This document shows positions 50,477-64,000 of a DNA stretch of 64,000 nucleotides, piece after piece. Each line of letters starts with the position of its first letter. The first letter of the stretch is position 1. Position numbers and translations under genes: made by a program. Source of the DNA: Martelella mediterranea DSM 17316 (lineage in GTDB: Bacteria > Pseudomonadota > Alphaproteobacteria > Rhizobiales > Rhizobiaceae); contig NZ_CP020330.1 of the NCBI RefSeq assembly GCF_002043005.1, positions 1,630,001 to 1,694,000 of the forward strand, read 5' to 3'. Below the pieces are notes generated by a model. The model had not been told where the DNA came from and did no database searches. It was given only the letters and a program-made list of their open reading frames with translations.

Positions 50477-51433
50477 ATGAAGACACTCGCTATCGCATCC
50501 GCGATTCTGGCTTTGGGTATCTCTGCGGCCCATGCGGAATACCCCGACCGCCCGATCAATATGATCGTGTCCTACAGCGCTGGCGGCGGTACTGACATCG
50601 CGGCGCGCACGCTTGCGCCCTTTATCGAAAAATACCTTGGCGACGACGCGTCCATCGTGGTTCTGAACAAGCCGGGTGCTGGCGGCGAGATCGGCTTCAC
50701 CGAACTGGCGCAGTCCAAGCCCGACGGTTACACGATCGGCTTCATCAACACGCCGAACCTCCTGACAATTCCCATCCAGCGCAAGGCCCGCTATTCGCTG
50801 GAGAGCCTCACGCCGATCGCCAATGTGATCGACGATCCGGATGCCTTCAGCTTCCTGCCAAGCAGCAATATCAAGTCGCTCGAAGAGCTGATCGCCTACG
50901 CCAAGGAGCATCCGGGCGAAGTCACCTACGGCACCACCGGTCTCGGCTCTGACGACCATCTTTCCGCTCTCGAATTCGAGCGGAAAACAGGCGTCAAGCT
51001 GAAGCATATTCCGTTTCCGGGTAATGCCGATGTGCGCACGGCAGTGCTTGGCGGTCATGTGATGATGGCCAGCATGAACATTTCCGAGACGATTGCCGAC
51101 GTCCACGAAGGCAATCTGGTTGTCCTCGGCCAGATGGCGGCCGAGCGCTGGGACGGGGCTCCCGATGTCCCGACCTTCCGCGAACAGGGTTATGATATCA
51201 TTATGGGCTCGATGCGCGGCATCGGCGCGCCGGCCAACCTGCCTGATGATATCAAGGCCAAGCTGGAAGCCGCGGTGAAGGCCGCCGTCGAAGATCCGGA
51301 ATTCCAGGAGAAGGCAAAACAGCAGCATCTGGCTCTGTCCTACCTCGACTCCAAGGATTTTATTGCCGAACTCCAGTCTCTGAATGCAACCTTCGAGGAA
51401 CTGTGGAAAACAGAACCCTGGGTACAGCAGTAA
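50477..51433 (+). CDS. tctC: TctC-type solute-binding protein (third set)
   Basis: This 318-residue protein follows AAGGAGG. The signal peptide ends near AAHAEY (residue 20), and the family core YPDRPINMIVSYSAGGGTDI and VLNKPGAGGEIGFTELAQSK is clear. It brings a carboxylate to TctAB. Together with the divergent dehydrogenase/aldolase cluster it suggests import of a hydroxylated di- or tricarboxylate. Confidence 0.92.
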   Translation: MKTLAIASAILALGISAAHAEYPDRPINMIVSYSAGGGTDIAARTLAPFIEKYLGDDASIVVLNKPGAGGEIGFTELAQSKPDGYTIGFINTPNLLTIPIQRKARYSLESLTPIANVIDDPDAFSFLPSSNIKSLEELIAYAKEHPGEVTYGTTGLGSDDHLSALEFERKTGVKLKHIPFPGNADVRTAVLGGHVMMASMNISETIADVHEGNLVVLGQMAAERWDGAPDVPTFREQGYDIIMGSMRGIGAPANLPDDIKAKLEAAVKAAVEDPEFQEKAKQQHLALSYLDSKDFIAELQSLNATFEELWKTEPWVQQ

Positions 51434-51439
51434 ACATCT

Positions 51440-51463
51440 CTGCGGGGCCTCTGCGCCCCGCAG
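51440..51463 (+). other. Stem-loop after tctC (third set)
   Basis: CTGCGGGGC and GCCCCGCAG form a perfect 9-bp stem around CTCTGC, followed by CATTTCTTCC. It starts six bases after the tctC stop. It may act as a partial terminator that lets only some transcripts reach tctB and tctA. Confidence 0.7.
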
Positions 51464-51484
51464 CATTTCTTCCGGGAGGATGTC

Positions 51485-51943
51485 ATGGAAAGAGCTAAGG
51501 TCGAAACCGGGGCAGCCCTGGTTTCGCTTCTCTTCAGTGCGCTCGGCCTGTTCGAGGCCTGGGGTTATTCCGGCGAAGGCGGAATGATGCCGCGCGCCAT
51601 TATGGCACTGATGGTTGCGCTTTCGGCAATCTGGTGTCTGCAATCCGTCGCCTCTCTGGGGCGTCATCCCGACCGGGTCATCTCGATTACGCCGCAGCAG
51701 TTTCGCGGCGCCGTCCTGTTGACGGTCGCGGGCCTCGGACTCGTGTTCGGCATGCAGTATCTCGGCTTCTACTCGACGGCGATCGTCATTTTGCCGGCAG
51801 TGGCGTATGGCCTCGGCTACCGGGAGCCGAAGGGCCTCGTGATTGCCACGGCGCTGTTCATCGCGCTGCTGATCGTCGTATTCCGCATCTTCCTTGCTGT
51901 TCCGCTGCCTGCGGAACGCCTGCTCTCGACTTTCGGAGGCTAG
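51485..51943 (+). CDS. tctB: TctB-type small membrane subunit (third set)
   Basis: This 152-residue protein follows GGGAGG and has four hydrophobic helices (for example GAVLLTVAGLGLVFGMQYLG). It has the size and place of TctB, between tctC and tctA, one base from the latter. Confidence 0.88.
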   Translation: MERAKVETGAALVSLLFSALGLFEAWGYSGEGGMMPRAIMALMVALSAIWCLQSVASLGRHPDRVISITPQQFRGAVLLTVAGLGLVFGMQYLGFYSTAIVILPAVAYGLGYREPKGLVIATALFIALLIVVFRIFLAVPLPAERLLSTFGG

Positions 51944-51944
51944 G

Positions 51945-53462
51945 ATGGGTCAGGTTTTTCAGCACATCCTCGACGCGATTCCCCTTCTGCTTGCGCCCAT
52001 GACCATCCTGGCGATGATTGGCGGCACGGCGATCGGGATTGCGGTCGGCGCATTGCCGGGTCTGTCGGCGACCATGGGTATTGCCGTTCTCATTCCGCTG
52101 ACCTTCACCATGTCTCCGGTGGCCGCCCTCGGCATGATCGCCGGTATCTATAACGGCGCGATGTATGGCGGTTCGATCCCCGCCATCCTCTTGCGCATTC
52201 CGGGCACGCCGGCCGGCGTTGCCACCGTGTTTGACGGCTATCCGATGGCGCAGAAGGGGCAGGCAAACCTTGCCCTTCGCATATCGCTCGTATCGTCCAG
52301 CATCGGCTCCGCCGTCAGCGCCGTCGCGCTGCTTGTACTTGCGCCGCCATTGTCGATGATCGCCCTGAAGTTCAGTGCCGCCAATTATTTCTGGCTGGCG
52401 ATCTTCGGCATGATGACCATCGCGGTCCTGTTGTCGTCCAATCCGGTCAAGGGACTTCTTTCCGCCGGTTTTGGGCTGTTCGTGGGCATGATCGGCATCG
52501 ACATGCTGACCGGCATCGAGCGGTTCGCCTTCAACAGGCTGGAACTGCTCAGCGGCGTTGACATCATCGTCCTGTTGACGGGCCTTTATGCCATTCCGCC
52601 CGCGATCGATCTGGCGCTGAGCCCGATCAAGACGGATACGGACGTCAGGCCTGTGCAGCAGGGTGATACGGTGCGCTTTCGCTGGTCGAGCCTCATTCCG
52701 GTCTGGATCAAGGCATCGCTGATCGGCGTGATTACAGGCATCATCCCCGCGCTCGGCGGCAATGTCGCGGCCCTTTTTGCGTGGAACGAGCAGCGGCGCA
52801 GCGACCCTGACAAGGAAAAATACGGCAAGGGCGCGCCTGAAGGCATCGCCGCGCCCGAATGCGCCAACAATGCCGATACCGCCGCAACGCTCATTCCGGC
52901 GCTGACACTCGGCATTCCCGGCAGTTCGGTTGCAGCCGTCATCCTCGGGGCACTTCTGGTGCATGGCCTGGTGCCCGGACCGCAGCTGTTCCGGGAAAAT
53001 GCCGACATTACTTACGGATTCATGCTTGCCATGCTCGTGACATCGGGACTGATGCTGCTTCTCGGCCGCTTTGGCGCGCGCGCCTTCGTCAACGTGCTTA
53101 AGATGCCCCCCCAGCTGCTTGCACCGATGATATTCATCCTCGCCACGGTTGGCGTCTATGCCATCCATAACAGCATGTTCGAGGTCTGGATGATGCTCGG
53201 CTTCGGCATTCTGGGCTATTTCATGGAAAAGCTGAACATCCCGACCGCGCCTGCGGTTCTGGCTGTGATCCTCGGCCCCATCGCAGAGGAAAATCTGCGG
53301 CGCGCCTTGCTGATTTCCAACAACGGCGTTATCGGCATTTTCCAGGGAACGATCTCGATCATCCTGATCGCGCTGATCCTCGCAACGACTGTCCTGCCGA
53401 TCCTTAACCGGCTGATGTCGCGCAAGAAGCGCGAGGCTGTCGCCGCCGGTTCGCAAGAGTAG
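51945..53462 (+). CDS. tctA: TctA-type large membrane subunit (third set)
   Basis: The start at 51945 follows GGAGG in the tctB end. The 505-residue protein has GIAVGALPGLSATMGIAVLI, ILLRIPGTPAGVATVFDGYP and GIIPALGGNVAALFAWNEQR, the TctA marks. About 12 helices form the transport channel. A strong terminator follows at 53480. Confidence 0.93.
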   Translation: MGQVFQHILDAIPLLLAPMTILAMIGGTAIGIAVGALPGLSATMGIAVLIPLTFTMSPVAALGMIAGIYNGAMYGGSIPAILLRIPGTPAGVATVFDGYPMAQKGQANLALRISLVSSSIGSAVSAVALLVLAPPLSMIALKFSAANYFWLAIFGMMTIAVLLSSNPVKGLLSAGFGLFVGMIGIDMLTGIERFAFNRLELLSGVDIIVLLTGLYAIPPAIDLALSPIKTDTDVRPVQQGDTVRFRWSSLIPVWIKASLIGVITGIIPALGGNVAALFAWNEQRRSDPDKEKYGKGAPEGIAAPECANNADTAATLIPALTLGIPGSSVAAVILGALLVHGLVPGPQLFRENADITYGFMLAMLVTSGLMLLLGRFGARAFVNVLKMPPQLLAPMIFILATVGVYAIHNSMFEVWMMLGFGILGYFMEKLNIPTAPAVLAVILGPIAEENLRRALLISNNGVIGIFQGTISIILIALILATTVLPILNRLMSRKKREAVAAGSQE

Positions 53463-53479
53463 AAACACGGCTGATCTGT

Positions 53480-53508
53480 AAATGGCCACGCGCAGACTTG
53501 GCCATTTT
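53480..53508 (+). terminator. Terminator after the third tct set
   Basis: AAATGGCCA (53480-53488) and TGGCCATTT (53499-53507) form a perfect 9-bp stem with a 10-base loop, followed by TTGC. It separates tctA from the gntR gene. Confidence 0.75.
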
Positions 53509-53676
53509 GCTTCCAGACTGTGCTAACCTCATTCCCGATCAAGGCTGGACGCCGTGTGTTCGTTCGGGCGCACAAGGGCTGCTTCGGCCGACTGGATTTG
53601 CGCATCGCGCCTTTCGCGGGCCGGTCCCGATTTTCGGGATGACGGCAAGCCGGAGAGCGCGGAGAAGGAAGAGAAG

Positions 53677-54321
53677 ATGAAAGTTTCCGAGGTTGTCTAC
53701 TCCAAGCTCAGGCGGCGGCTGGTTTCCGGATACTATCTCCCCGGCAGCCAGTTAAAGGAGGAGGCCCTTGCCCAGGACTTCGACGTCAGCCGTACTCCCG
53801 TTCGCAATGCCATCGCACGGCTGACATCCGAAGGTCTTCTGATACCCGGCGAAAAGCGCGGCGCGCTCGTGACGCCCTGGGGGATGGAGAACACTGCCGA
53901 TGTGTTCGCGCTTCGTGTCCTTCTTGAAGGGCACGGCGCCTATCTTTGCGCCAAGAAAGCAAGTGACGAGCAGATTGCGGTGATGGAACAGACCTGCGAG
54001 GAAATGGAGAGGCAGTTTTCCGTCAAGGGTGCCGACTGGATCAAGAAGATGGATCAGGGCAATCGCGTCATTCACGAAATGCTCTACGAAGCTTCGGGCA
54101 GCCCCTATCTGAGGCTATCGGGCAAACATCTGCTCGAAGTGCCGCAGGTGATCGGCGGCTTCTTCATTTACGAGGATGCCGATGTCGAGGAAAGCCTCCG
54201 CCAGCATCGGGAGATCGTCAAGGCCATCAAGCTGCATAATGGTGACTGGGCGCGCTCGGCGGTCGCCTGCCACCTGAATGCCGCGCTGGAGCGCTTCAGG
54301 CGGCGAACGTCGGAAGAGTGA
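53677..54321 (+). CDS. GntR-family regulator (FCD type)
   Basis: The start at 53677 opens the GntR domain directly (MKVSEVVYSKLRRRLVSGYY); the longer frame lacks homology. The 214-residue protein has a winged helix (QDFDVSRTPVRNAIARLTSE) and an FCD ligand domain with the metal-binding pattern. It follows the third tct set and probably regulates it and the divergent dehydrogenase cluster. Confidence 0.87.
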   Translation: MKVSEVVYSKLRRRLVSGYYLPGSQLKEEALAQDFDVSRTPVRNAIARLTSEGLLIPGEKRGALVTPWGMENTADVFALRVLLEGHGAYLCAKKASDEQIAVMEQTCEEMERQFSVKGADWIKKMDQGNRVIHEMLYEASGSPYLRLSGKHLLEVPQVIGGFFIYEDADVEESLRQHREIVKAIKLHNGDWARSAVACHLNAALERFRRRTSEE

Positions 54322-54509: not shown

Positions 54510-55035
54510 ATGACAGACCGTGATCCGCGATATCGTCGCCATCGCTTCCCCCTGAAGTCGTTGCCCACGCCGTGTGGCTCTATTTCCGGTTTCCTCTGAG
54601 CCTGCGACTGGTCGTGGGCTTGCTGGCTGCTCGCGGGATCATTGTCTCTCACCAAACCGTCCGGCTGTGGGCGGAGAAATTCGGCCGCACCTTTGCCAAC
54701 GCAATCCGTCGTAAATCGTCCGGTCAGCTTGGGGACAAGTGCCATCTGGATGAAGCCGTTGTTTCAATGCGTGGCAAGACGCACTGGCTGTGGCGCGCCG
54801 TTGATCAGGACGGTTTCGTCTTGGATGTTCTTGATCAAAGCCAACGAAACGCCAAGCGCCTGATGCGAAAGCTCTTGAAGGACCATGGCCGATCGTCGCA
54901 GGTGATGATCACGGACAAGCTGCGACCCTACGACGCGGCAAAGCGAGAAATCATGCCTTGTGTCGAGCATCACTCCCGCAAAGGGTTGAACAATCGGGCG
55001 GAGAATTCTCACCGGCCGGTCAGGCGGCGAAGCAT
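54510..55035 (+). pseudogene. IS6-family transposase, frameshifted and truncated
   Basis: The start at 54510 reads MTDRDPRYRRHRFPL and then leaves the family sequence at a run of five Cs (54548-54552); one more C would restore the usual PPEVVAHAVWLYFRF. The other frame continues from about 54556 with the DDE motifs: CHLDEAVVSMRGKTHWLWRA, then MITDKLRPYDAAKREIMP and NNRAENSHRPVRRR. The last 60 or so residues are missing after 55035. It is inactive. Confidence 0.8.
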
Positions 55036-55089
55036 GATCGATGAAACAGGCCGGTGGCATTGTCTGCCCTCGTTGCAGTTAAGTTTACG

Positions 55090-55146
55090 ATGCCACAGAA
55101 GCAGATCAATGAGTTGCTGCCTTGGAATTATTTCGCCAAGGTCTGA
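55090..55146 (+). pseudogene. IS66 TnpC tail fragment
   Basis: Eighteen codons, MPQKQINELLPWNYFAKV, match the usual end of the IS66 transposase TnpC (INELLPW). Nothing else of the element is evident. It lies against the truncated IS6 gene. The call rests on a very short match. Confidence 0.4.
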
Positions 55147-55437
55147 CCAGAACACCGCATACGGTGATCTGGGGCGATGGAGACCGCTCCTATGGCTGGA
55201 GCCAGCCATAGGCGCTCTGGAAAGCCATCCCCGGCTGCCGGCTCGCCGAAGTGCCGGGCGGCGCGCACAATGTTCAATGGAAAATCCGGAGATTTCAATC
55301 CAATCGTTTCGGACTTCCCGGGCAACTGAAACGACGAGTTGCGGCCGATAGCCGGGACTCAGCCTGTTGACAAAGTCCCCTTTTCCGGCAGAGAGCGTGG
55401 CAAGGTCGTGATGACCCACGAGGTTTGTCAACAAACA
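55147..55437. other. Gene-free stretch after IS debris
   Basis: About 290 bases hold no credible gene. The sequence may include further insertion-sequence ends, but I cannot define any. A palindromic part, TATGGCTGGAGCCAGCCATA near 55191, stands out as a perfect inverted repeat of 10-bp arms. Confidence 0.4.
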
Positions 55438-55517: not shown

Positions 55518-56567
55518 CTACTGCCGGTCGGGCAGGGGCATCCAGTCGGGCGTGGCGACATCGGCGTGGGCGAAGGCAGGCAGCTTTTCGCTGAGCTCCT
55601 GCATGTTCTTGATGTCGTCATCAAGAAGCACCTGCTGGGTGATCAGCGTCGGCGGCACGATAACGTTGTGGCCGGGGTCTTCGCCGGCGAGCATCATTGC
55701 CAGCGCGCGGACGGACACTTCGCCGACGACAGCCGGATTGGTGGCCGCGGTGGCGGCCCAGGCGCTGCCGGGTTCGCGCATGGCGGCGATATCGGATGTC
55801 GAGACGTCAGCCGAATATATCTTGATCGCATCCGACATGCCGGCTTCGTCGACGGCGATCTTCACGCCCTTGGCGAACTCGTCATAGGGCGCGAACATGA
55901 CGGTGATGTTCGGGTTTGCCGAGAGAACCGAGCGCGCCTGGTTGGCAACCGAGTTGGCGATCGGATTGTCGAGCGTGCCGAAAGTGGCCACTTCATCGAT
56001 GCCCGGATACTTCTCCTTGAACTCCTGCCAGACCTCGTCGCGGCGGTCGAGCGGCGCGATGCCGGGGACGTAGACATAGCCGGCCTTGAAGCTGTCGCCA
56101 TTGTCCTCGATCGCCTGTTCCAGCGCCAGACGGGCGAGATCATGGTCCGACTGTTCGATCTGCGGAATGGCGTCGTTTTCGACGTTTACGTCGAAGGCAA
56201 CCACATCAATGCCGGCATCGACGGCGCGCTGTGCGGCTTCGCGCATGCTTTCCGTCAGGCCGTGCTGGATGATGATGCCATCAACGCCGAGCGCGATCGC
56301 CTGATCCACCATGTCGGCCTGCAGGGCGGCATCCTGGCGGCTGTCGAGCACGCGAAGATTGAGGCCGAGCGCCTTCGACTGGGCTTCGACGCCAGCCAGA
56401 TAGGACTGGAAGAAGTCGCCGGTCGAAAGATAGCGCACCAGCGCGATGGTGACGTCCTCCGGCTTGTCGAAGGGGGCCGGCATGTCGGCCGCCAGCGCCG
56501 GCATCGCGGCGGCGGAAAGCATTGCGCTCGCCGCCATGGTGTTGAACAGTCTGCGTGTGATTTTCAT
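55518..56567 (-). CDS. Sugar ABC transporter substrate-binding protein (RbsB-like)
   Basis: This 349-residue protein has a signal peptide (RRLFNTMAASAMLSAAAMPA, cut near LAAD) and the type I periplasmic binding fold (FFQSYLAGVEAQSKALGLNL; VDGIIIQHGLTESMREAAQR; DVVAFDVNVENDAIPQIEQS). It binds a pentose-like ligand for the permease and ATPase genes upstream on the same strand. Because mtnK and mtnA lie divergent, the ligand may be 5-methylthioribose or a related 5-deoxypentose. Confidence 0.9.
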   Translation of the reverse strand: MKITRRLFNTMAASAMLSAAAMPALAADMPAPFDKPEDVTIALVRYLSTGDFFQSYLAGVEAQSKALGLNLRVLDSRQDAALQADMVDQAIALGVDGIIIQHGLTESMREAAQRAVDAGIDVVAFDVNVENDAIPQIEQSDHDLARLALEQAIEDNGDSFKAGYVYVPGIAPLDRRDEVWQEFKEKYPGIDEVATFGTLDNPIANSVANQARSVLSANPNITVMFAPYDEFAKGVKIAVDEAGMSDAIKIYSADVSTSDIAAMREPGSAWAATAATNPAVVGEVSVRALAMMLAGEDPGHNVIVPPTLITQQVLLDDDIKNMQELSEKLPAFAHADVATPDWMPLPDRQ

Positions 56568-56659
56568 GTTGTCATTCCTCCACGTCTGAGATCCAGTTTT
56601 AAGATCGCTTGCGCCTCCTCCCGCAGTGCCCGATACCGGCGCCAGTATCGGTCCTGTCG

Positions 56660-56681
56660 ACGGGCGGTGAACACCGCCCGT
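56660..56681 (-). other. Stem-loop between permease and binding-protein genes
   Basis: ACGGGCGGTG and CACCGCCCGT form a perfect 10-bp stem with a minimal loop, without a U-tract. It lies just after the permease stop and upstream of the binding-protein gene. It may stabilise the separate binding-protein transcript or mark an internal promoter region. Confidence 0.6.
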
Positions 56682-56698
56682 TCATGTTCAGTGCCCGG

Positions 56699-57772
56699 TC
56701 AATGCTTGTGCCGGGTCGACAGCGCGAAGGTGAACACCAGCGCGATCACCAGCACCGCGCCCTTGACGAAGTCCTGGGTGTAATAGGGCGCGTTCATCAT
56801 CGTCAGCCCCTGAAGCAGAATGCCGACAAACAGCGCGCCGATGGCCGTGCCGAAGGCATTGGGCTTGGCAGCGCCGAGCACGGCAAAGCCGATCAGCGCC
56901 GCGGCCACCGCATCCAGCAGAAGATTGTTGCCGGAGGCGATATCGCCGCGGCCGAGACGGGCGGCCAGAAGAATGCCGCCGATCGAGGCGAACTCGGCCG
57001 AAATCACATAGGCGAGGATCTTGTAGCCGTTGACCGGCGCGCCGGCGAGCGCTGCGGCGCGCTCATTGGAGCCGACGGCATACATCATCCGGCCGAACCG
57101 GGTGAATTCCAGAAACAACCAGATCGCGATCGCCAGAACGATCAGCACCACAACCGATACCGGTACGAGATTGGGCAGGATGAAATCGAAGCGGTGGCGG
57201 CCGAGCGCCAGAAAGGCGGCGCTGAACGCGCCCTCGGCCTGCGAGCCATCCGGCAGCGTCATGCCGGTCGCAATCGACCGGCCTTCGGTCGGAATGCGCT
57301 GGAGGCCGAGAAGCAGGAACATCATGCCGAGCGTCGCCAGGAGATCGGGAACGCGACCGTAGACGATCAGAACGCCGTTGATCAGGCCTATCAACCCGCC
57401 AATGACGAGGCAGACGGCAACGGCTTCGAACGCATTGCCGCCCATGACCACCATGACGTATGAAGAGGCCATCAGCGCCGTGGTCGCCACCGAGCCGATC
57501 GAAAGGTCGAAGCCGCCGACCACCAGCGTCGCCGTGACGCCGAGCGCCAGAATGCCGGTGATCGACACCGATTGCAGGATGAAGACCGCGCTCTGCGGCG
57601 AGCCAAAACCCGGAGCGGCGATCGAAAACACCAGAACCAGCGCCAACAGCAGCGTCAGAAAGCCATAGCGGATTGCCAGCGCGCGGACATTGCCCGACTG
57701 GCGGCCGCCAGGCTTTTCGGCCGGATTCGCGGCGGTGAGCTTCTGGGCGAGGGCGTTTTCTTTGTTGGTCAT
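56699..57772 (-). CDS. Sugar ABC transporter permease (RbsC-like)
   Basis: This 357-residue protein has about ten hydrophobic helices and the family motifs GGFDLSIGSVATTALMASSY and GSNERAAALAGAPVNGYKIL. It overlaps the ATPase gene by 4 nt. It forms the membrane channel of a carbohydrate importer of the RbsABC class. Confidence 0.92.
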   Translation of the reverse strand: MTNKENALAQKLTAANPAEKPGGRQSGNVRALAIRYGFLTLLLALVLVFSIAAPGFGSPQSAVFILQSVSITGILALGVTATLVVGGFDLSIGSVATTALMASSYVMVVMGGNAFEAVAVCLVIGGLIGLINGVLIVYGRVPDLLATLGMMFLLLGLQRIPTEGRSIATGMTLPDGSQAEGAFSAAFLALGRHRFDFILPNLVPVSVVVLIVLAIAIWLFLEFTRFGRMMYAVGSNERAAALAGAPVNGYKILAYVISAEFASIGGILLAARLGRGDIASGNNLLLDAVAAALIGFAVLGAAKPNAFGTAIGALFVGILLQGLTMMNAPYYTQDFVKGAVLVIALVFTFALSTRHKH

Positions 57773-59274
57773 TGGCTCACCATTTCCAGACGCCCGGCGA
57801 TCTGGGCGAGAAGTGTATCAAGGTCGACATCGAGATTCCGGTGCTCGCCGACAATCGTGTGCTCGGACATCACCAGAATGCGGTCGGCAATCTCGAACGC
57901 CTCGTCGAGTTCGGTCAGGAACACCAGCGTGGCACGCCCGCCCGCCGATTGCCTGAGCGTCGATGCGATATCGCGGCGGGCGGCAATATCGACGCCCTGG
58001 AACGGTTCATCGAGGATCAGCAGCCGCGCGTCATGGCTCAGCCAGCGTCCGACCATCACCTTTTGCTGGTTGCCGCCGGACAGCGTCTGCATGGCATCGC
58101 GTTCCGTGCGGCAGACGACATTGAGCCCGGTGATCTGATCGCGCGCCTGCGCCTTTTCCCGCGACCGGCTCATGATCCCGAAGGAGGACAGGCGCCGCAG
58201 AAACGGCAGGCTGATGTTTTCGTAGATGTTGAAATCGGGCACGATCCCGCTGACCGCGCGATCCTTGGCCACCAGGAACACCCCGTTTGCGATGGCCGCG
58301 CCCGTGTTTTTCGGCGCGTAGCTCTTGCCCTCCAGCCTCATCTGCCCGCCATGGGGCCGGCGCGCGCCGAACAGCGTTTCCGCAAGCGCGGTCTTGCCGA
58401 CGCCGACAAGGCCGGTGACCGCGACGATTTCACCCTCCCGCAGCGACAGCGAGAAAGGCTTCTTGCCGGGCGCGATCCGGAGATCCTTTGCCGAGAAAAC
58501 CTCGGCCCCGCCATCACGGACATCGACATGGCCATGGCCGATGGCGCGGCCGAGCATGGCGTCGACAGCGCCCTTGTAATCGAGTTCCGGACCTTCGAAC
58601 ACGCCGGAGATACGGCCATCGCGCAGCGTAACGATGGTATCGGCCAGCCGGCGGATATCCGACATGCGATGCGAAATATAGAGGATCGCAACGCCATCGG
58701 CGCGCAAGCGGTCAAGTAGAGCGAACAGCCGGTCCGCCTCCGCGCTCGAAAGCGACGAGGTCGGCTCGTCGAGAATGAGAACGCGCGGCTTGTGGGCCAT
58801 GGCGCGGGCAATCGCCACCATCTGGCGGTCGGCCAGCGACAGGTCGGATACCTGGGCCGACAGGTCGAGCGAGAGCCCCATGGCTTCGGCGACGACGCGG
58901 GCCTGTTTGCGGATTTTGTAAGGATTGAAGAACACCGAAGCGCCGCGCCCGGTCAGCCGGTCGAGCACAAGATTGGTCGCGACATCGAGATCGGCGGCAA
59001 CGCCGTCATTGATGTTCTGATGCACGGTGACGACGCCGGCGCGGATGGCTTCCGCCGGGGTAGCGGGGGTGAAAGGCTTGCCGGCAAGCGTGATCGTGCC
59101 ACTGTCGGGGCGATAGAGCCCGGTGACGGTGCGCACCAGCGTGGATTTACCAGCGCCGTTCGCTCCCATCAGCACGGTCACTTCTCCGGAGCGCAAGCGC
59201 AGATCGACGCCATCCAGCACCTGGATCGGCCCGAACGCCTTGCGCAGCCCGTCTATGCGGAACACTGCGGTCAT
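57769..59274 (-). CDS. Sugar ABC transporter ATPase (RbsA-like, two domains)
   Basis: Two nucleotide-binding domains make up 501 residues. The first has Walker A GANGAGKSTLVRTVTG near 37, and LSLADRQMVAIARAM with Walker B LILDEPTSSL. The second has a degenerate Walker A, GLVGVGKTALAETLFG, and LSGGNQQKVMVGRW with LILDEPFQGVD. The ATG at 59274 fits the RBS better than the one at 59283. It is first in the operon, next to the shared operator. Confidence 0.93.
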   Translation of the reverse strand: MTAVFRIDGLRKAFGPIQVLDGVDLRLRSGEVTVLMGANGAGKSTLVRTVTGLYRPDSGTITLAGKPFTPATPAEAIRAGVVTVHQNINDGVAADLDVATNLVLDRLTGRGASVFFNPYKIRKQARVVAEAMGLSLDLSAQVSDLSLADRQMVAIARAMAHKPRVLILDEPTSSLSSAEADRLFALLDRLRADGVAILYISHRMSDIRRLADTIVTLRDGRISGVFEGPELDYKGAVDAMLGRAIGHGHVDVRDGGAEVFSAKDLRIAPGKKPFSLSLREGEIVAVTGLVGVGKTALAETLFGARRPHGGQMRLEGKSYAPKNTGAAIANGVFLVAKDRAVSGIVPDFNIYENISLPFLRRLSSFGIMSRSREKAQARDQITGLNVVCRTERDAMQTLSGGNQQKVMVGRWLSHDARLLILDEPFQGVDIAARRDIASTLRQSAGGRATLVFLTELDEAFEIADRILVMSEHTIVGEHRNLDVDLDTLLAQIAGRLEMVSQ

Positions 59275-59321
59275 GAAAATCATTTCCTCCCGCTACCATC
59301 CTAGAGATCAAAATCATCAAA

Positions 59322-59387
59322 TGTCAACAGCAATGACATTTGACAGAAAATAAAAATAGCAATTGTCATTGCTGTTGACAAATGACA
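59322..59387. promoter_or_regulatory. Double operator between the ABC and mtnK operons
   Basis: TGTCAACAGCAATGACA (59322-59338) is repeated exactly inverted at 59364-59380. Each copy is itself TGTCA-N7-TGACA, and half sites TTTGACA and AATGACA follow on the outer and inner sides. The two copies lie about 42 bp (four helix turns) apart in an AT-rich centre between divergent genes. It should bind a repressor that controls both operons, perhaps by looping; the regulator gene is not seen in the window. Confidence 0.75.
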
Positions 59388-59456
59388 GAGCGCGGCGCTA
59401 CCGTGTTGAAAAGCCCCGCGAGCGCATATCGTCGGGGCGCATTTGGGAGGATGTCT

Positions 59457-60725
59457 ATGGCGCTGGAACAGGCCTTTGCGGCCCTTGAGCCTGAAACCCT
59501 GCCGTCACGGCTGGGAACGCTCGAAATCCTGACGGAAAAGCTGGGTCCGCCTTCGGGCTGGAAGGTTCGGGAGGTCGGCGACGGCAATCTGAACCTCGTC
59601 TTCATCGTCGAGGGCGGCGGCAAAAGCATGATCGTCAAGCAGGCGCTGCCCTATGTGCGGCTTGTGGGCGAAGGCTGGCCGCTGCCGCTGACCCGATCGT
59701 TCTTCGAATACAACGCCCTCATCCGCCAGGCCGACCGCGCGCCGGGAAGCGTGCCGGAAGTCTTCTATTTCGATGAGCGTCAGGCGATCATCGTTCAGGA
59801 ATTCCTGAGCCCGCATATCATCCTGAGACGAGCGCTGATCGAAGGGCAGGTACTGCCACGGCTTGCCGAAGATCTCGGCCTGTTCATGGCGCGCACGCTT
59901 TTCCGCGGCTCCGACCTTTCGTTGGAGGCGGCGGCGCGCAAGAAGGACATGGCGCTGTTTGCCGGCAATGACGCGCTGTGCGACATCACCGAGGCACTGG
60001 TCTTCACCGACCCCTATTACGATGCCGAGATGAACAGCCATACGACGCCCGAACTCGACGGCATCGTGGCAAGGCTCAGGGCCGACCGCGACCTGAAGGT
60101 GACGGCGCAGGAAATGAAGCAGGCCTTCGTCACCCGCGCCGAGACCATGCTGCATGGCGACCTCCATACCGGCTCGATCATGGTCACCGAGGACGAGACG
60201 CGGGTGATCGACCCCGAATTCGCCTATTACGGCCCGATGGCCTTCGATGTCGGCATGCTGCTCGCCAACTACTGGATGAGCTTCTTCTCGCAGCGCGGCC
60301 ATGAACAGAACGGCGCGCGTGGGAATGTGCGCCGCCACCTGCTGAATACAATCACGGGCACATGGACCGCTTTCCGCGACGAGTTTTCGCGGCTGTGGCG
60401 CGAGGAGCGCACCGGCATTCTGTTCCAGCGCGCGCTTTATGAGGATCAGGGTGATACGCTCGGCGCGGAACAGGCGCTGGAACGGTTCCTGCATGCGCTG
60501 TTCGAGGACATGCTGGGCTTTGCCGGGCTGGAAATCCATCGCCGTATTCTGGGCCTCGCCCATAATGCCGATTTCGAGACCATTGCGGATAGGGCTCAAA
60601 AGGCGCGTTGCGAAACCGCCGCGCTGGAATTCGGCCGCCATATCGCCGTCAACCGCCGCCATATCAGCAGCCTTGACGCACTGGAAAGACTGGCCAGCCG
60701 GCTGGAAGAGGAGAGCGCCCCATGA
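59457..60725 (+). CDS. mtnK: S-methyl-5-thioribose kinase
   Basis: I choose the start at 59457 because GGGAGG ends seven bases upstream; the ATG at 59451 is too close to it. The 422-residue protein has [20 protein letters not shown] at the N-lobe, the catalytic [11 protein letters not shown] and the metal-binding [16 protein letters not shown], as in MtnK. It phosphorylates 5-methylthioribose, and possibly other 5-deoxyriboses, at C1 using ATP. It overlaps mtnA by 4 nt. Confidence 0.92.
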
Positions 60726-61816
60726 AGGTTGGCGATAAACACTACCGCACGATCTGGCCGCATCAGGATGGCCTTTCCGTAGAGATCATCGACCAGCGCT
60801 GGCTGCCGCATGATTTCCGTGTCGTCACCCTGTCCACGGTCGACGAGATCGCCACCGCGATCGCCGACATGTGGGTGCGCGGCGCGCCGCTGATCGGCGT
60901 GACGGCGGCCTATGGCATCGCCATCGCCATGGCGGATGATCCCACTGACGCTCATCTCAATGCGACCTGCAACAAGCTGCACGCAACGCGGCCGACGGCC
61001 ATCAATCTCAAATGGGCGCTCGATGAAATGCGGCACACGCTCTCGATCGTCGCGACCGACAAGCGTGCGGAGGCGGCCTACCGCCGCGCCGCCGAAATCG
61101 CCGATGAGGATGTGGAGCTGAACCGCGCGATCGGCCGCCACGGGCTGGAGATCATCAAGGAAATCGCGGCGAAGAAGAAGCCGGGCGAACCGGTCAATAT
61201 CCTCACCCATTGCAATGCCGGCTGGCTTGCCACCGTCGATTACGGCACGGCGACCGCGCCGATCTACCTGGCAATGGAGGCCGGCATTCCGGTCCACGTC
61301 TTCGTCGATGAAACCCGCCCGCGCAATCAGGGCGCGCAGCTGACCGCCTGGGAAATGGACGGCCATGGCGTGCCGCATGACCTGATCGTGGACAATGCCG
61401 GCGGCCATCTTATGCAGCATGGCGAGATCGACATGGTGATTGTGGGCACCGACCGGACCACCGCATCCGGTGATGTCTGCAACAAGATCGGCACATATCT
61501 CAAGGCGCTGGCGGCCAAGGATAACGGCGTGCCGTTCTATGTCGCGCTGCCATCGCCCACCATCGACTGGACAGTCCGTGACGGCGTCGCGGAAATCCCG
61601 ATCGAGGAGCGCAACGGCGACGAGGTGAGCTTTGTGCAGGGTGAGAACTCCGCGGGCGAGATCATCTCGGTGCGCATTTCGCCAAAGGGCACGCCGGCCC
61701 GCAACCCGGCCTTCGACGTCACCCCCGCCCGCCTTGTCACCGGCCTGATCACCGAACGCGGCATCGCCGAAGCATCCGCCCCAGGCCTTGCCCGCCTCTT
61801 TGAAAAAGAAAACTAG
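60722..61816 (+). CDS. mtnA: S-methyl-5-thioribose-1-phosphate isomerase
   Basis: This 364-residue protein has [20 protein letters not shown], the catalytic Cys at about 164 in [12 protein letters not shown], and the Asp at about 244 in [17 protein letters not shown]. These match MtnA, which converts methylthioribose 1-phosphate to methylthioribulose 1-phosphate. It follows mtnK with an overlap, and the transketolase gene starts three bases after it. Confidence 0.92.
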
Positions 61817-61819
61817 ACC

Positions 61820-62755
61820 ATGTCCCTGACCAACGAAAAATCCACCGAGGATATCGCGCATGGTATCCGCAAGCGGGTGTTCCTGCACACGATGCGCAAC
61901 AATGGCGGCTATCTGAGCCAGGCCTGTTCTGCCGCCGAAAGCCTCGCCTTTCTTTATAACGAGGCGCTTCATCTGGGCGCGCCGACGCTGCCGCCGGTTC
62001 CCAAACCCTTTGCCGGCGTGCCGTCGGCCCACAACCCGGATGCGTTTACCGGCGCAGGCTATCACGGCCCGTTCGCGCCGGACTATGACCGCTTCTTCGT
62101 CTCGCCCGCCCATTATGCGCTGGTGATCTATTCGGCGCTGATCGAGGTCGGCCGCATGGATGAGAACGCGCTCGACCATTTCAACAAGGATGGCGGCTCG
62201 GTGGAAATGATCGGGGCCGAGCACAGCCCCGGCATGGAAGTCACCACCGGTTCGCTGGCGCAGGGGCTTTCCATGGCCTCCGGGGTCGCCTTCGCCCGCA
62301 AGCGCGCCGGCGACAAGGGCAAGGTCTGGGTCTATATGTCCGACGGCGAGTTCCAGGAGGGCCAGACCTGGGAATGCCTGTCGGCCATGCGCCACCACGA
62401 AATTGACAACATCCGGGTGATCGTCGACGTCAACCGTCAGCAATGCGACGGCGCCATGTCCTCGGTTCAGGAGCTTTACGACCTGCCGGAACGGATTGCC
62501 GCCTTCGGCGCGACCTGCCGCTCGATCGACGGGCATGACCTCGACGCCATGCGCAAGGCCGCCGACAGCGCCGAGCCCGGCAAGCCGCTGGTGATCCTTG
62601 CCAATACTTCACCGTTTCAGGGCATGGACTTCCTGAAGAAACGCTTCCCGCGCCTGCATTACGTTCGCTTCAAGAGCGAAGCCGAACGCAAGGAGATGCG
62701 CGACGCGCTGGCGAAAGAGCTCGGCGTCGACATGCACGAAATCGAAGAGGCCTGA
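61820..62755 (+). CDS. Transketolase, N-terminal (ThDP) subunit
   Basis: This 311-residue protein equals the first domain of transketolase, with SAAESLAFLYNEAL, GAEHSPGMEVTTGSLAQGLS and the ThDP motif MSDGEFQEGQTWE...VDVNRQQCDG near 173-215. It needs the next gene product for a complete active site. Split transketolases of this type occur in catabolic operons, for example for apulose 4-phosphate. Here, after mtnA, it more likely splits a methylthio- or deoxy-ketopentose phosphate. Confidence 0.88.
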   Translation: MSLTNEKSTEDIAHGIRKRVFLHTMRNNGGYLSQACSAAESLAFLYNEALHLGAPTLPPVPKPFAGVPSAHNPDAFTGAGYHGPFAPDYDRFFVSPAHYALVIYSALIEVGRMDENALDHFNKDGGSVEMIGAEHSPGMEVTTGSLAQGLSMASGVAFARKRAGDKGKVWVYMSDGEFQEGQTWECLSAMRHHEIDNIRVIVDVNRQQCDGAMSSVQELYDLPERIAAFGATCRSIDGHDLDAMRKAADSAEPGKPLVILANTSPFQGMDFLKKRFPRLHYVRFKSEAERKEMRDALAKELGVDMHEIEEA

Positions 62756-62757
62756 TC

Positions 62758-63759
62758 ATGGTGGACATCGTCAACAGACCCTACGCCACGGCGTTTGAAA
62801 CCTTCGCCACCGCGCGGCCCGAGGTGATGTGCCTTTCGGCCGACCTCACCTCGTCCTGCGAGGTCGATGGTTTTCGCGACCGCCATCCCGACCAGTTCCT
62901 GTCCATGGGCATGGCCGAGCAGAACATGCTGTCCTTCGCCGGCGGGCTGGCGATGCAGGGCTACCGGCCCTTCATCCACACCTTCGCGGTGTTTCTCTAT
63001 CGCCGTCCTTATGACCAGCTCATCAACTCGATCGCCTATTCCAACCGCAAGGTGCGGATGATGGGCTTTCTGCCCGGCATTACCACGCCTGGCGGCATCA
63101 CCCATCAGGCAATCGAGGATATCGCGGTGATGCGCGCCATCCCCAACATGACGGTGCTGGAAACCGGTGACGCGACCGAAGTGGAAACCGTGCTCGAGGT
63201 CGCCGACAGCATTGACGGGCCGGTCTATGTGCGCGTGCTGCGCGGCCAGGTGCCGCGGCTGTTTGCGACCCCGTTTGCGTTCAACGAACTCCGTACGCTC
63301 AGCAAGGGCGACGATGTGCTCGTGCTAACATCCGGCGTTTGCACGGAAGAGGCGCTGCGCGCCACGGCAGCGCTTTCGGCAAAGGGCGTTGGCGTCCATC
63401 ACCTCCATGCCTCAACGCTGAAGCCCTTCGACCGCGACACCTTCATCGAGGCCGCACGCGGCAAGAAGGGCGTGGTCACGCTCGAAAATCATATCATCAC
63501 CGGTGGCCTCGGCACGATCGCGGCAGAGATCATCGCGGAGGAAGGGCTTGGCGTGAAGCTTCGCCGCCTCGGGCTCAACGACACCTTCGCCCATGGCGCA
63601 TCCAAACCCTATCTGATGAAGAAATACGGTCTCGACGCCGGCGCTCTGGTCGCCGCGATCGAAGATGTGCTCGGCCAGAAGCTCGATATCAGCGATGATG
63701 CCTTGCAGGCGGTGCGCCTCGACGCGGTCCATTCGGCCGAAAAGGCGGAGGCGCTCTGA
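62758..63759 (+). CDS. Transketolase, C-terminal subunit
   Basis: This 333-residue protein holds the pyrimidine-binding domain with the catalytic Glu in SMGMAEQNMLSFAGGLAMQ near 62, and the C-terminal domain (VLVLTSGVCTEEALRATAAL). It forms the heteromeric enzyme with the preceding subunit. The stop overlaps the start of the RuBisCO-like gene by one base. Confidence 0.88.
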   Translation: MVDIVNRPYATAFETFATARPEVMCLSADLTSSCEVDGFRDRHPDQFLSMGMAEQNMLSFAGGLAMQGYRPFIHTFAVFLYRRPYDQLINSIAYSNRKVRMMGFLPGITTPGGITHQAIEDIAVMRAIPNMTVLETGDATEVETVLEVADSIDGPVYVRVLRGQVPRLFATPFAFNELRTLSKGDDVLVLTSGVCTEEALRATAALSAKGVGVHHLHASTLKPFDRDTFIEAARGKKGVVTLENHIITGGLGTIAAEIIAEEGLGVKLRRLGLNDTFAHGASKPYLMKKYGLDAGALVAAIEDVLGQKLDISDDALQAVRLDAVHSAEKAEAL

Positions 63760-64000
63760 TGGCGAACCGGTTTTCGGCGGGCTATCTGATTTCTGATGCT
63801 GACTACGAGACCGCGAAACAGCGCGCGCTCAACATCACGGTCGAGCAGACCGTCGAGATCCCGCGCGATATCGTGCCCGCCGGCTATGTCGAGGATGAAA
63901 TCCTCGGCCGGCTGGAGGCGCTGGAGGCGGCGGACGGTGGCTACATCGCCGAGATATCCTACAGTCTCGACGATGTCGGCGGCGACTTCCTGCAGCTTCT
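63759..64000 (+). CDS. RuBisCO-like protein, 5' part
   Basis: The first 80 codons are seen before the window ends. FSAGYLISDADYETAKQRAL, then VEQTVEIPRDIV and EDEILGRLEAL, followed by YSLDDVGGDFLQLL, match the N-terminal domain of form IV RuBisCO-like proteins (AxEQSVE..., GRVE, G.DL.QLLN). Such proteins act as enolases or isomerases on methylthioribulose 1-phosphate or as decarboxylases. Catalytic residues lie beyond the window end, so the subtype is undetermined. Confidence 0.78.
   Translation, partial: MANRFSAGYLISDADYETAKQRALNITVEQTVEIPRDIVPAGYVEDEILGRLEALEAADGGYIAEISYSLDDVGGDFLQL

Follow-up and report, generated by a model that had tools for sequence, protein, structure and literature searches.

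We analyzed a 64,000-nucleotide stretch of the Martelella mediterranea DSM 17316 genome (the window; contig NZ_CP020330.1, positions 1,630,001 to 1,694,000, part of a 5.69-Mb genome), at the end of which a compact operon encodes a 5-methylthioribose kinase (MtnK), a 5-methylthioribose-1-phosphate isomerase (MtnA), the two halves of a split transketolase-like enzyme dependent on thiamine diphosphate (ThDP) (TktA and TktB; together TktAB) and a RuBisCO-like protein (RLP), with an ABC importer encoded divergently (Table 1). Because the cupin methylsulfurylase and TktB are mutually exclusive neighbors of the RLP in the sampled loci, we conclude from comparison of gene neighborhoods that the split transketolase occupies the place held by the cupin in the 5'-methylthioadenosine (MTA)-isoprenoid shunt. 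We propose that the locus serves the catabolism of imported 5-methylthioribose and the salvage of its sulfur, and probably handles other 5-substituted riboses as well; in this scheme TktAB would cleave 1-(methylthio)xylulose 5-phosphate. We regard the case for this proposal as evenly poised. Gene order, protein families, the cupin replacement, a gene fusion and alternative upstream modules are read from the sequence, and from these we infer every reaction proposed below for the locus. A preliminary description of the window had reported an RbsABC-like importer divergent from a tight mtnK-mtnA-tktA-tktB-RLP operon, with which the open reading frames (ORFs), their junctions and the MtnK and MtnA scores agree, and had suggested a pathway of the methylthioribose type that links MtnK and MtnA with an isomerase-type RLP and an RLP-linked split transketolase, which comparative genomics supports.

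The RuBisCO-like protein and its neighbors

Searches of 249 genomes from the order and 385 from the class yielded RLP matches, of which we read 46 loci, comprising 30 of the 46 places in the order and all 16 new places in the class; the 16 unread places hold RLPs at most 35% identical to that of the window, four of them 34-35% over partial length. Among RLPs at least 41% identical to that of the window, TktB was adjacent in 15 of 16 cases (window included; the exception is L019, and L016 is counted on a partial TktB where its contig ends), and no cupin was adjacent; among those 34-39% identical a cupin was adjacent in 23 of 25 cases (the exceptions are L032 and L070, the latter at a contig end) and TktB in none. 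Five RLPs of 30% identity or less had neither neighbor. The cupin query came from Terrarubrum; no model in an NCBIfam scan names it, and its best solved relative is 3jzv, named Rru_A2000 of Rhodospirillum rubrum (176.8 bits), which we take to be the methylsulfurylase of that organism. As described in the accessible part of PMC5893883, the cupin acts after the RLP to give methanethiol and 1-deoxyxylulose 5-phosphate (DXP).

These distributions bear on the possibility that the locus is an ordinary MTA-isoprenoid shunt with its cupin elsewhere and a transketolase acting on unrelated sugar phosphates. Although the RLP retains the signature of the shunt class, no cupin match was found in the host genome (in a search without a positive control) or in the fetched stretches around 47 RLP-linked TktAB loci (0 of 47), and tktAB lies adjacent in a discrete clade and is fused to MtnA elsewhere; we consider this explanation very improbable.

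The best solved relative of the window RLP is 3qfw (227.8 bits), which we take to be RLP1 of Rhodopseudomonas palustris, and a cupin-linked RLP of the sample scored 456.6 bits to the same structure. Every one of the 47 Tkt-linked and 24 cupin-linked RLPs has both catalytic lysines, the metal aspartate and the GRF motif. The histidine of KxDH is kept in 46 of the Tkt-linked proteins and in all 24 cupin-linked ones; OiaX and five of eight other RLPs have glutamate there. We conclude from these residues that the window RLP carries the residue signature of the class (DeepYkr) that includes the proven 5-methylthioribulose-1-phosphate 1,3-isomerases, as a more distant relative: it has the signature in common with cupin-linked RLPs, yet lies one branch apart from them, with a 3qfw score half the size. 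In the part of PMC5893883 available, R. palustris RLP1 and the RLP of R. rubrum produce, from 5-(methylthio)ribulose 1-phosphate, three parts 1-(methylthio)xylulose 5-phosphate to one part 1-(methylthio)ribulose 5-phosphate. In a tree of 80 RLPs, built by a quick method, a single branch (SH-like approximate likelihood-ratio test (SH-aLRT) 100) separates the 47 Tkt-linked from the 24 cupin-linked proteins, and the two labels need only one change; L042, L063 and L064 form long branches, and, with the outgroup used, the Tkt-linked RLPs L042, L086 and L087 fall beside the cupin set (88).

The preliminary description had proposed placing both proteins phylogenetically, which puts the RLP in the Tkt-linked branch and TktB in a clade of its own (SH-aLRT 99), and had held that grouping of the RLP with apionate decarboxylases would speak against a methylthioribose pathway. 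The RLP does not group there: it scores 69.7 bits against the OiaX cut-off of 700, its signature residues differ, and a separate protein in the same genome scores 782.3 bits. The latter, a 3-oxo-isoapionate-4-phosphate decarboxylase (L004:9142-10404, contig C2), has importer-like ORFs upstream. The RLP was also rejected as an MtnW enolase of universal salvage (139.5 and 177.5 bits against cut-offs of 513.6 and 409). That the operon belongs to the apiose/apionate pathways, with an AptAB-type transketolase and an OiaX-type RLP, is barely credible to us, even though those pathways also contain split transketolases and RLPs, given these scores and residues and given that the genome encodes, in addition to its separate OiaX, a second split transketolase next to a glycerol-kinase-like FGGY kinase. 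That second enzyme (L124; G000:C1:488000-502000) is accompanied by an ABC importer, a SorC regulator and dehydrogenases, looks like part of an apulose-type pathway and is only 31% identical to the window TktB. L117, L110, L115 and relatives carry another split transketolase family, 35-41% identical to the window TktB and with tyrosine at the His26 position.

Two further RLP loci were seen. L063:7053-10806 encodes an RLP with an MtnK-like kinase and an iron-alcohol-dehydrogenase-family protein and has neither cupin nor transketolase, and the RLP at L087:2750-3856 is without the conserved His-Pro stretch, perhaps through an assembly gap or decay of the gene.

A discrete split transketolase family and the modules proposed to feed it

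Sequence scores and phylogeny argue that TktAB is a discrete family: TktA members score 270-649 bits against 154 or less for other proteins, TktB members 334-680 against 234 or less, and 56 TktB lie on one side of the SH-aLRT 99 branch from 28 other split transketolases. The nearest solved structures are those of a split transketolase, 6yaj (210.5 bits) and 6yak (104.8 bits). The columns of H66, D155, H261, E411 and H473, which serve ThDP and magnesium binding and catalysis in transketolases, are retained in 56/56 members, as is the metal asparagine in a D-x-N motif (the alignment column labeled N185 is, by indexing, the neighboring position). By contrast, the donor and acceptor contacts are replaced, and TktAB was therefore rejected as a canonical transketolase: the Escherichia coli His26 column is tyrosine, the His100 column is isoleucine, and the residue preceding GxTH (the Asp469 position) is glycine, each in 56/56, where the host's own transketolase and DXP synthase (DXS) have aspartate at the last. 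Further, all 56 members and none of the 28 others have an insertion of about 27 residues in TktA, and 54 of the 56 and none of the 28 have an EHSPG motif. TktB was likewise rejected as DXS (165.5 bits against a cut-off of 465.95), and DXS or an unrelated transketolase is ruled out by the clade and the RLP linkage.

We pooled 58 TktAB loci from several searches, so they are not a random sample, and contig ends hide some genes. An RLP lies within 1.1 kb at 47 of them, and these 47 have MtnA in 42 cases, MtnK in 38, an aldolase/short-chain dehydrogenase (SDR) in 12, a BisC-family reductase in two, an FGGY kinase in two and a cupin in none. In the Rhodobacteraceae-like family, 31 of 345 genomes carry TktB, and 30 neighborhoods fetched from that family have the RLP adjacent in 22 and not in eight; L119 (no RLP) and L122 (RLP) had been fetched earlier. 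Linkage to MtnA extends to fusion: in the alphaproteobacterial locus L086, MtnA and TktA form one protein of 656 residues (IF-2B 45-332, Transketolase_N 441-626), next to TktB, the RLP, a SorC regulator, a nucleoside transporter and a purine nucleoside phosphorylase (PNP). Such fusions occur in at least three of 120 listed protein clusters (P0121, which is L086, and P0122 and P0123 at 82-83% identity). Upstream functions vary. Pelagibacterium has the rhizobial block with an adjacent PNP, deaminase and nucleoside importer, and Ponticoccus alexandrii encodes, in order, a PnrA-type nucleoside importer, an inosine-type PNP, a deaminase-like amidohydrolase whose closest solved relative is an MTA/S-adenosylhomocysteine (SAH) deaminase, MtnA, a BisC-family S/N-oxide reductase (901.2 bits, below the cut-off of 1017.55), TktA, TktB and the RLP.

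The remaining 11 loci are RLP-free and have no MtnA, MtnK or aldolase/SDR; a BisC-family gene is present in seven, a xylulokinase-like FGGY kinase in six, a 4-epimerase-like protein in four and a sulfatase-like protein in three. Like the SorC regulator and the aldolase/SDR beyond the window, these loci lay outside the view of the preliminary description. Among eight genomes without a local RLP, of which one is 83% complete, seven gave no RLP match elsewhere and the eighth gave a match of 25% identity. The tree included nine of the 11 RLP-free TktB and places all nine inside the clade; one shares 90% identity with the Ponticoccus protein. The whole module, found on plasmids of Paracoccus seriniphilus and Marinovum algicola, consists of an SsuA-like importer, a sulfatase-like protein, a BisC-like reductase, an FGGY kinase, a Zn-dehydrogenase, an L-ribulose-5-phosphate 4-epimerase-like protein, a SorC regulator and TktAB; because the six protein kinds scored there with NCBIfam all fall below cut-off, their names hold at family level only. 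L190, L191, L163 and L164 share this module, with no SsuA-like importer seen in L164 and no sulfatase-like protein in L163. The gene content suggests a sulfated, S-oxidized pentitol as the nutrient. BisC-family genes occur in 47 of 149 genomes of the Rhodobacteraceae-like family at 58 or more places, or about 0.2% per 20-kb stretch (calculated by hand), and their presence at 7 of 11 loci, of which L190 and L191 were found through similarity to L119, is therefore far above background. Dimethylarsinoylribitol sulfate was considered as an arsenic analogue feeding the sulfatase module; no literature was found for this guess, and it was not used.

Proposed reactions and competing explanations

In the proposed route, with early steps assigned by family membership, the importer would bring in the sugar, MtnK would form its 1-phosphate, MtnA would give 5-methylthioribulose 1-phosphate, and the RLP would shift the carbonyl to yield 1-(methylthio)xylulose 5-phosphate. 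TktA and TktB together would then cut the C2-C3 bond, freeing glyceraldehyde 3-phosphate and holding CH3S-CH2-C(OH)= on ThDP; that TktAB performs a cleavage yielding glyceraldehyde 3-phosphate is the step of which we are fairly confident. The bound unit would most likely expel methanethiol to form acetyl-ThDP, which would leave the enzyme as acetyl phosphate, acetate or acetyl-CoA. TktAB would thus do the sulfur-releasing job of the cupin while supplying central metabolism with carbon. We are least sure of this elimination, drawn by analogy, and place it slightly short of an even balance. Phosphoketolase loses water and sulfoacetaldehyde acetyltransferase (Xsc) loses sulfite from a ThDP adduct; the chemistry proposed here is alike in proceeding by elimination to acetyl-ThDP, although these are different ThDP enzymes and methanethiol is an inferred leaving group. 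The linked aldolase/SDR may serve 5-deoxyribose, in that it could convert 5-deoxyribulose 1-phosphate, or overflow, to dihydroxyacetone phosphate (DHAP) and an aldehyde as a second branch like the DHAP shunt.

Because the MtnK/MtnA/RLP route and the dehydrogenase/xylulokinase-like/4-epimerase-like route end in the same TktAB family, their shared substrate points to a xylulose-type ketose 5-phosphate changed at C1. The leading candidate is 1-(methylthio)xylulose 5-phosphate, since S/N-oxide reductases stand beside both routes and the cupin's place is taken. We advance tentatively the broader idea that TktAB is a ThDP-dependent carbon-sulfur lyase (a "thio-xylulose-5-phosphate phosphoketolase") forming the common end point of modules for methylthioribose, for methylthio-nucleosides and S-oxides, and for marine sulfated or sulfoxide pentitols, the last entering through SsuA-like importer, sulfatase-like, BisC-like, xylulokinase-like and 4-epimerase-like proteins.

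The preliminary description had instead assigned TktAB a two-carbon transfer. As a true transferase, TktAB would have CH3S-CH2-CO, or CH3-CO from DXP, pass to an acceptor aldose to give a 1-substituted ketose, then excreted or processed elsewhere, and glyceraldehyde 3-phosphate. TktAB is indeed closest to transketolases among solved structures, and the split enzymes for the odd sugars apulose 4-phosphate and sulfofructose are transferases. Set against this, the sulfur would be stuck in a ketose although TktAB takes the place of the methanethiol-releasing cupin, no conserved acceptor-making or downstream gene was recognized at the loci, and His100 and the aspartate before GxTH are replaced throughout the family. 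Transfer is thus not borne out and appears unlikely to us; elimination fits the cupin replacement better and is favored because transfer would leave the sulfur locked in.

A second alternative is that 5-deoxyribose is the physiological substrate, the RLP making DXP and TktAB acting in the manner of a reversed DXS or on a side branch. In the DHAP shunt, 5-deoxyribose compounds are substrates of MtnK and MtnA (PMC10986504, available portion), a RhaD-like aldolase/SDR fits deoxy-ketose 1-phosphates, and the Ponticoccus deaminase scores highest, among named nucleoside deaminases, as a 5'-deoxyadenosine deaminase. We nevertheless consider it improbable, as S/N-oxide reductases lie near TktAB at 9 of 58 loci, a two-carbon unit without a leaving group has no obvious outlet, and the aldolase by itself would be enough.

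Several points weigh against the proposed methylthioribose route as a whole. First, the replaced contacts are partly general: tyrosine at His26 also occurs in 16 of the 28 other split transketolases and aspartate before GxTH in none of them (tyrosine in 15, leucine in 13), so that the marks we take from the alignment as distinctive of TktAB are the change of His100 to isoleucine, EHSPG and the TktA insertion. Second, the chemistry of the Tkt-linked family is argued from sequence comparison, and at L053:9743-10789 an RLP of the Tkt clade adjoins an enolase-superfamily protein and an ABC importer without TktAB. Third, BisC-family enzymes reduce N-oxides too, the BisC proteins do not reach the cut-off of their family and occur at only 2 of 47 RLP-linked loci, and 3 of the 11 RLP-free loci (L161, L162 and L184) have neither BisC nor the kinase. 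Fourth, the Ponticoccus deaminase scores 301.1 bits as a 5'-deoxyadenosine deaminase and 220.3 as an MTA/SAH deaminase, both below cut-off, which, with the inosine-type PNP, leaves room for 5'-deoxynucleosides as the substrates there. Finally, no gene handling acetyl phosphate was recognized near the operon, no search having been aimed at one, and removal of 5-methylthioribulose 1-phosphate could be the work of the aldolase/SDR by itself; the aldolase route of R. palustris, in the available part of PMC5893883, also gives methanethiol. The aldolase/SDR is present at only 12 of the 47 RLP-linked loci.

Judged from the available parts of the sources, the locus resembles the MTA-isoprenoid shunt of R. 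rubrum and R. palustris (PMC5893883) in having MtnA followed by a putative RLP 1,3-isomerase, which would make 1-(methylthio)xylulose 5-phosphate and has the signature residues in common, and differs in the separate RLP subfamily, in the split transketolase-like enzyme where the shunt has a cupin, and in methylthioribose import and MtnK where the shunt has MtnP. With the mtnK-mtnA-ald2 DHAP shunt of E. coli ATCC 25922 (PMC10986504) it shares a gene set with MtnK, MtnA and a probable class II aldolase, but the Martelella aldolase is fused to a short-chain dehydrogenase, and the RLP and TktAB are extra. Because the E. coli shunt leaves MTA sulfur as 2-methylthioethanol, going by the same part of that source, an added sulfur-releasing branch would be useful.

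AptAB, a two-chain transketolase for apulose 4-phosphate, is alike in its two chains and unusual ketose phosphate; TktAB forms a separate clade, has another kinase and context, and in TktB is about 31% identical to the candidate AptAB that Martelella also encodes. SqwGH is a two-chain sulfo-transketolase acting on a sulfur-bearing sugar, a sulfonated hexose with a C1-OH donor, which we liken to TktAB by description and not by sequence. A full-text literature search, with most subscription journals outside its scope, found among the papers listed no report joining a split transketolase to MtnK and an RLP and no reported role for this alphaproteobacterial RLP family. The use of MtnK, MtnA and RLPs and split transketolases for odd sugars are known, and their union and the proposed reaction appear to be new. 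If true, the proposal would add a branch for recycling methionine/S-adenosylmethionine by-products that uses a split transketolase-like enzyme instead of a cupin, dioxygenase or aldolase and turns a sulfur sugar into central carbon and a volatile thiol; it would also give a probable function to the RLP family and have a marine pathway for oxidized or sulfated sulfur polyols end in the same enzyme.

Layout and surroundings of the locus

Table 1. Features of the importer and mtnK-mtnA-tktA-tktB-RLP locus (window positions unless a stretch beyond it, L003, is named)
Feature	Position	Strand	Basis or remark
Periplasmic sugar-binding protein, Peripla_BP_4, RbsB-like	55518..56567	-	ORF and family match
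ABC permease, RbsC-like	56699..57772	-	ORF and family match
ABC ATPase, RbsA/AraG-like	57769..59283	-	ORF and family match
Palindrome, first arm, TGTCA-N7-TGACA	59322..59338	n/a	Divergent promoter
Palindrome, second arm, inverted copy of first	59364..59380	n/a	Divergent promoter
mtnK, 5-methylthioribose kinase	59382..60725	+	TIGR01767, 483.7 bits (cut-off 275)
mtnA, 5-methylthioribose-1-phosphate isomerase	60722..61816	+	TIGR00512, 433.9 bits (cut-off 279)
tktA, N-terminal half, split transketolase-like ThDP enzyme	61820..62755	+	Insertion within residues 50-86; EHSPG motif
tktB, C-terminal half of split enzyme	62758..63759	+	Conserves catalytic Glu and His; has Gly for the Asp of DGxTH
RLP, first 80 codons (242 nt in window)	63759..64000	+	Continues on contig
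SorC-type (SorC/DeoR-like) sugar-binding regulator	L003:9978-10931		Downstream of RLP, outside window
Aldolase/SDR, class II, 684 aa	L003:10994-13048		Beyond SorC regulator, outside window

The operon junctions are a 4-nt overlap (mtnK/mtnA), gaps of 3 nt (mtnA/tktA) and 2 nt (tktA/tktB) and a 1-nt overlap (tktB/RLP). The true mtnK start is probably 59451 rather than that in Table 1, because annotated relatives have about 423 residues and the promoter palindrome ends at 59380. TktA and TktB match the NCBIfam transketolase models below cut-off only. Reading the same contig past position 64,000, as the preliminary description had advised, gave the complete RLP of 371 residues (L003:8759-9874), the SorC regulator and the aldolase/SDR. 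The last scores 1076.3 bits with NF006192 (cut-off 639) and 507.7 with RhaD (cut-off 567.75); by these scores it is RhaD-like, and we have not filed it as RhaD. The nearest RLP from outside the host genome, 94% identical, is in a Martelella metagenome-assembled genome. As copies of the same block recur on plasmids of Agrobacterium, Mariluticola, Ensifer, NT-25 and Pararhizobium, the block is not a chance arrangement. A homologue of the binding protein is present at 37 of the 47 RLP-linked TktAB loci. No MTA nucleosidase or MTA phosphorylase scored over cut-off in the host genome (weaker matches reached 24.8 and 91.6 bits), and import therefore looks like the source of methylthioribose. An O-acetylhomoserine sulfhydrylase over cut-off in the host could accept methanethiol, but such an enzyme is also encoded in 9 of 14 control genomes, which makes it weak support.

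The divergent promoter between mtnK and the importer spans 98 bp and holds two TGTCA-N7-TGACA arms that are exact inverted copies, where 0.04 matches would be expected by chance in the window. The motif occurs in 11/11 rhizobial or Devosia-type loci (window included), 17/60 TktAB loci overall and 0/14 control loci, and on this distribution we regard it as a lineage feature. In the Ponticoccus variant the palindrome lies upstream of the PNP gene, and in L045 and L165 the motif is located away from the divergent promoter.

The importer is flanked by an ORF (54572-55351) that by eye resembles an IS6-type transposase, and the ORF translations of 50477-54321, also read by eye, suggest genes for a tripartite tricarboxylate transporter and for a GntR-type regulator.

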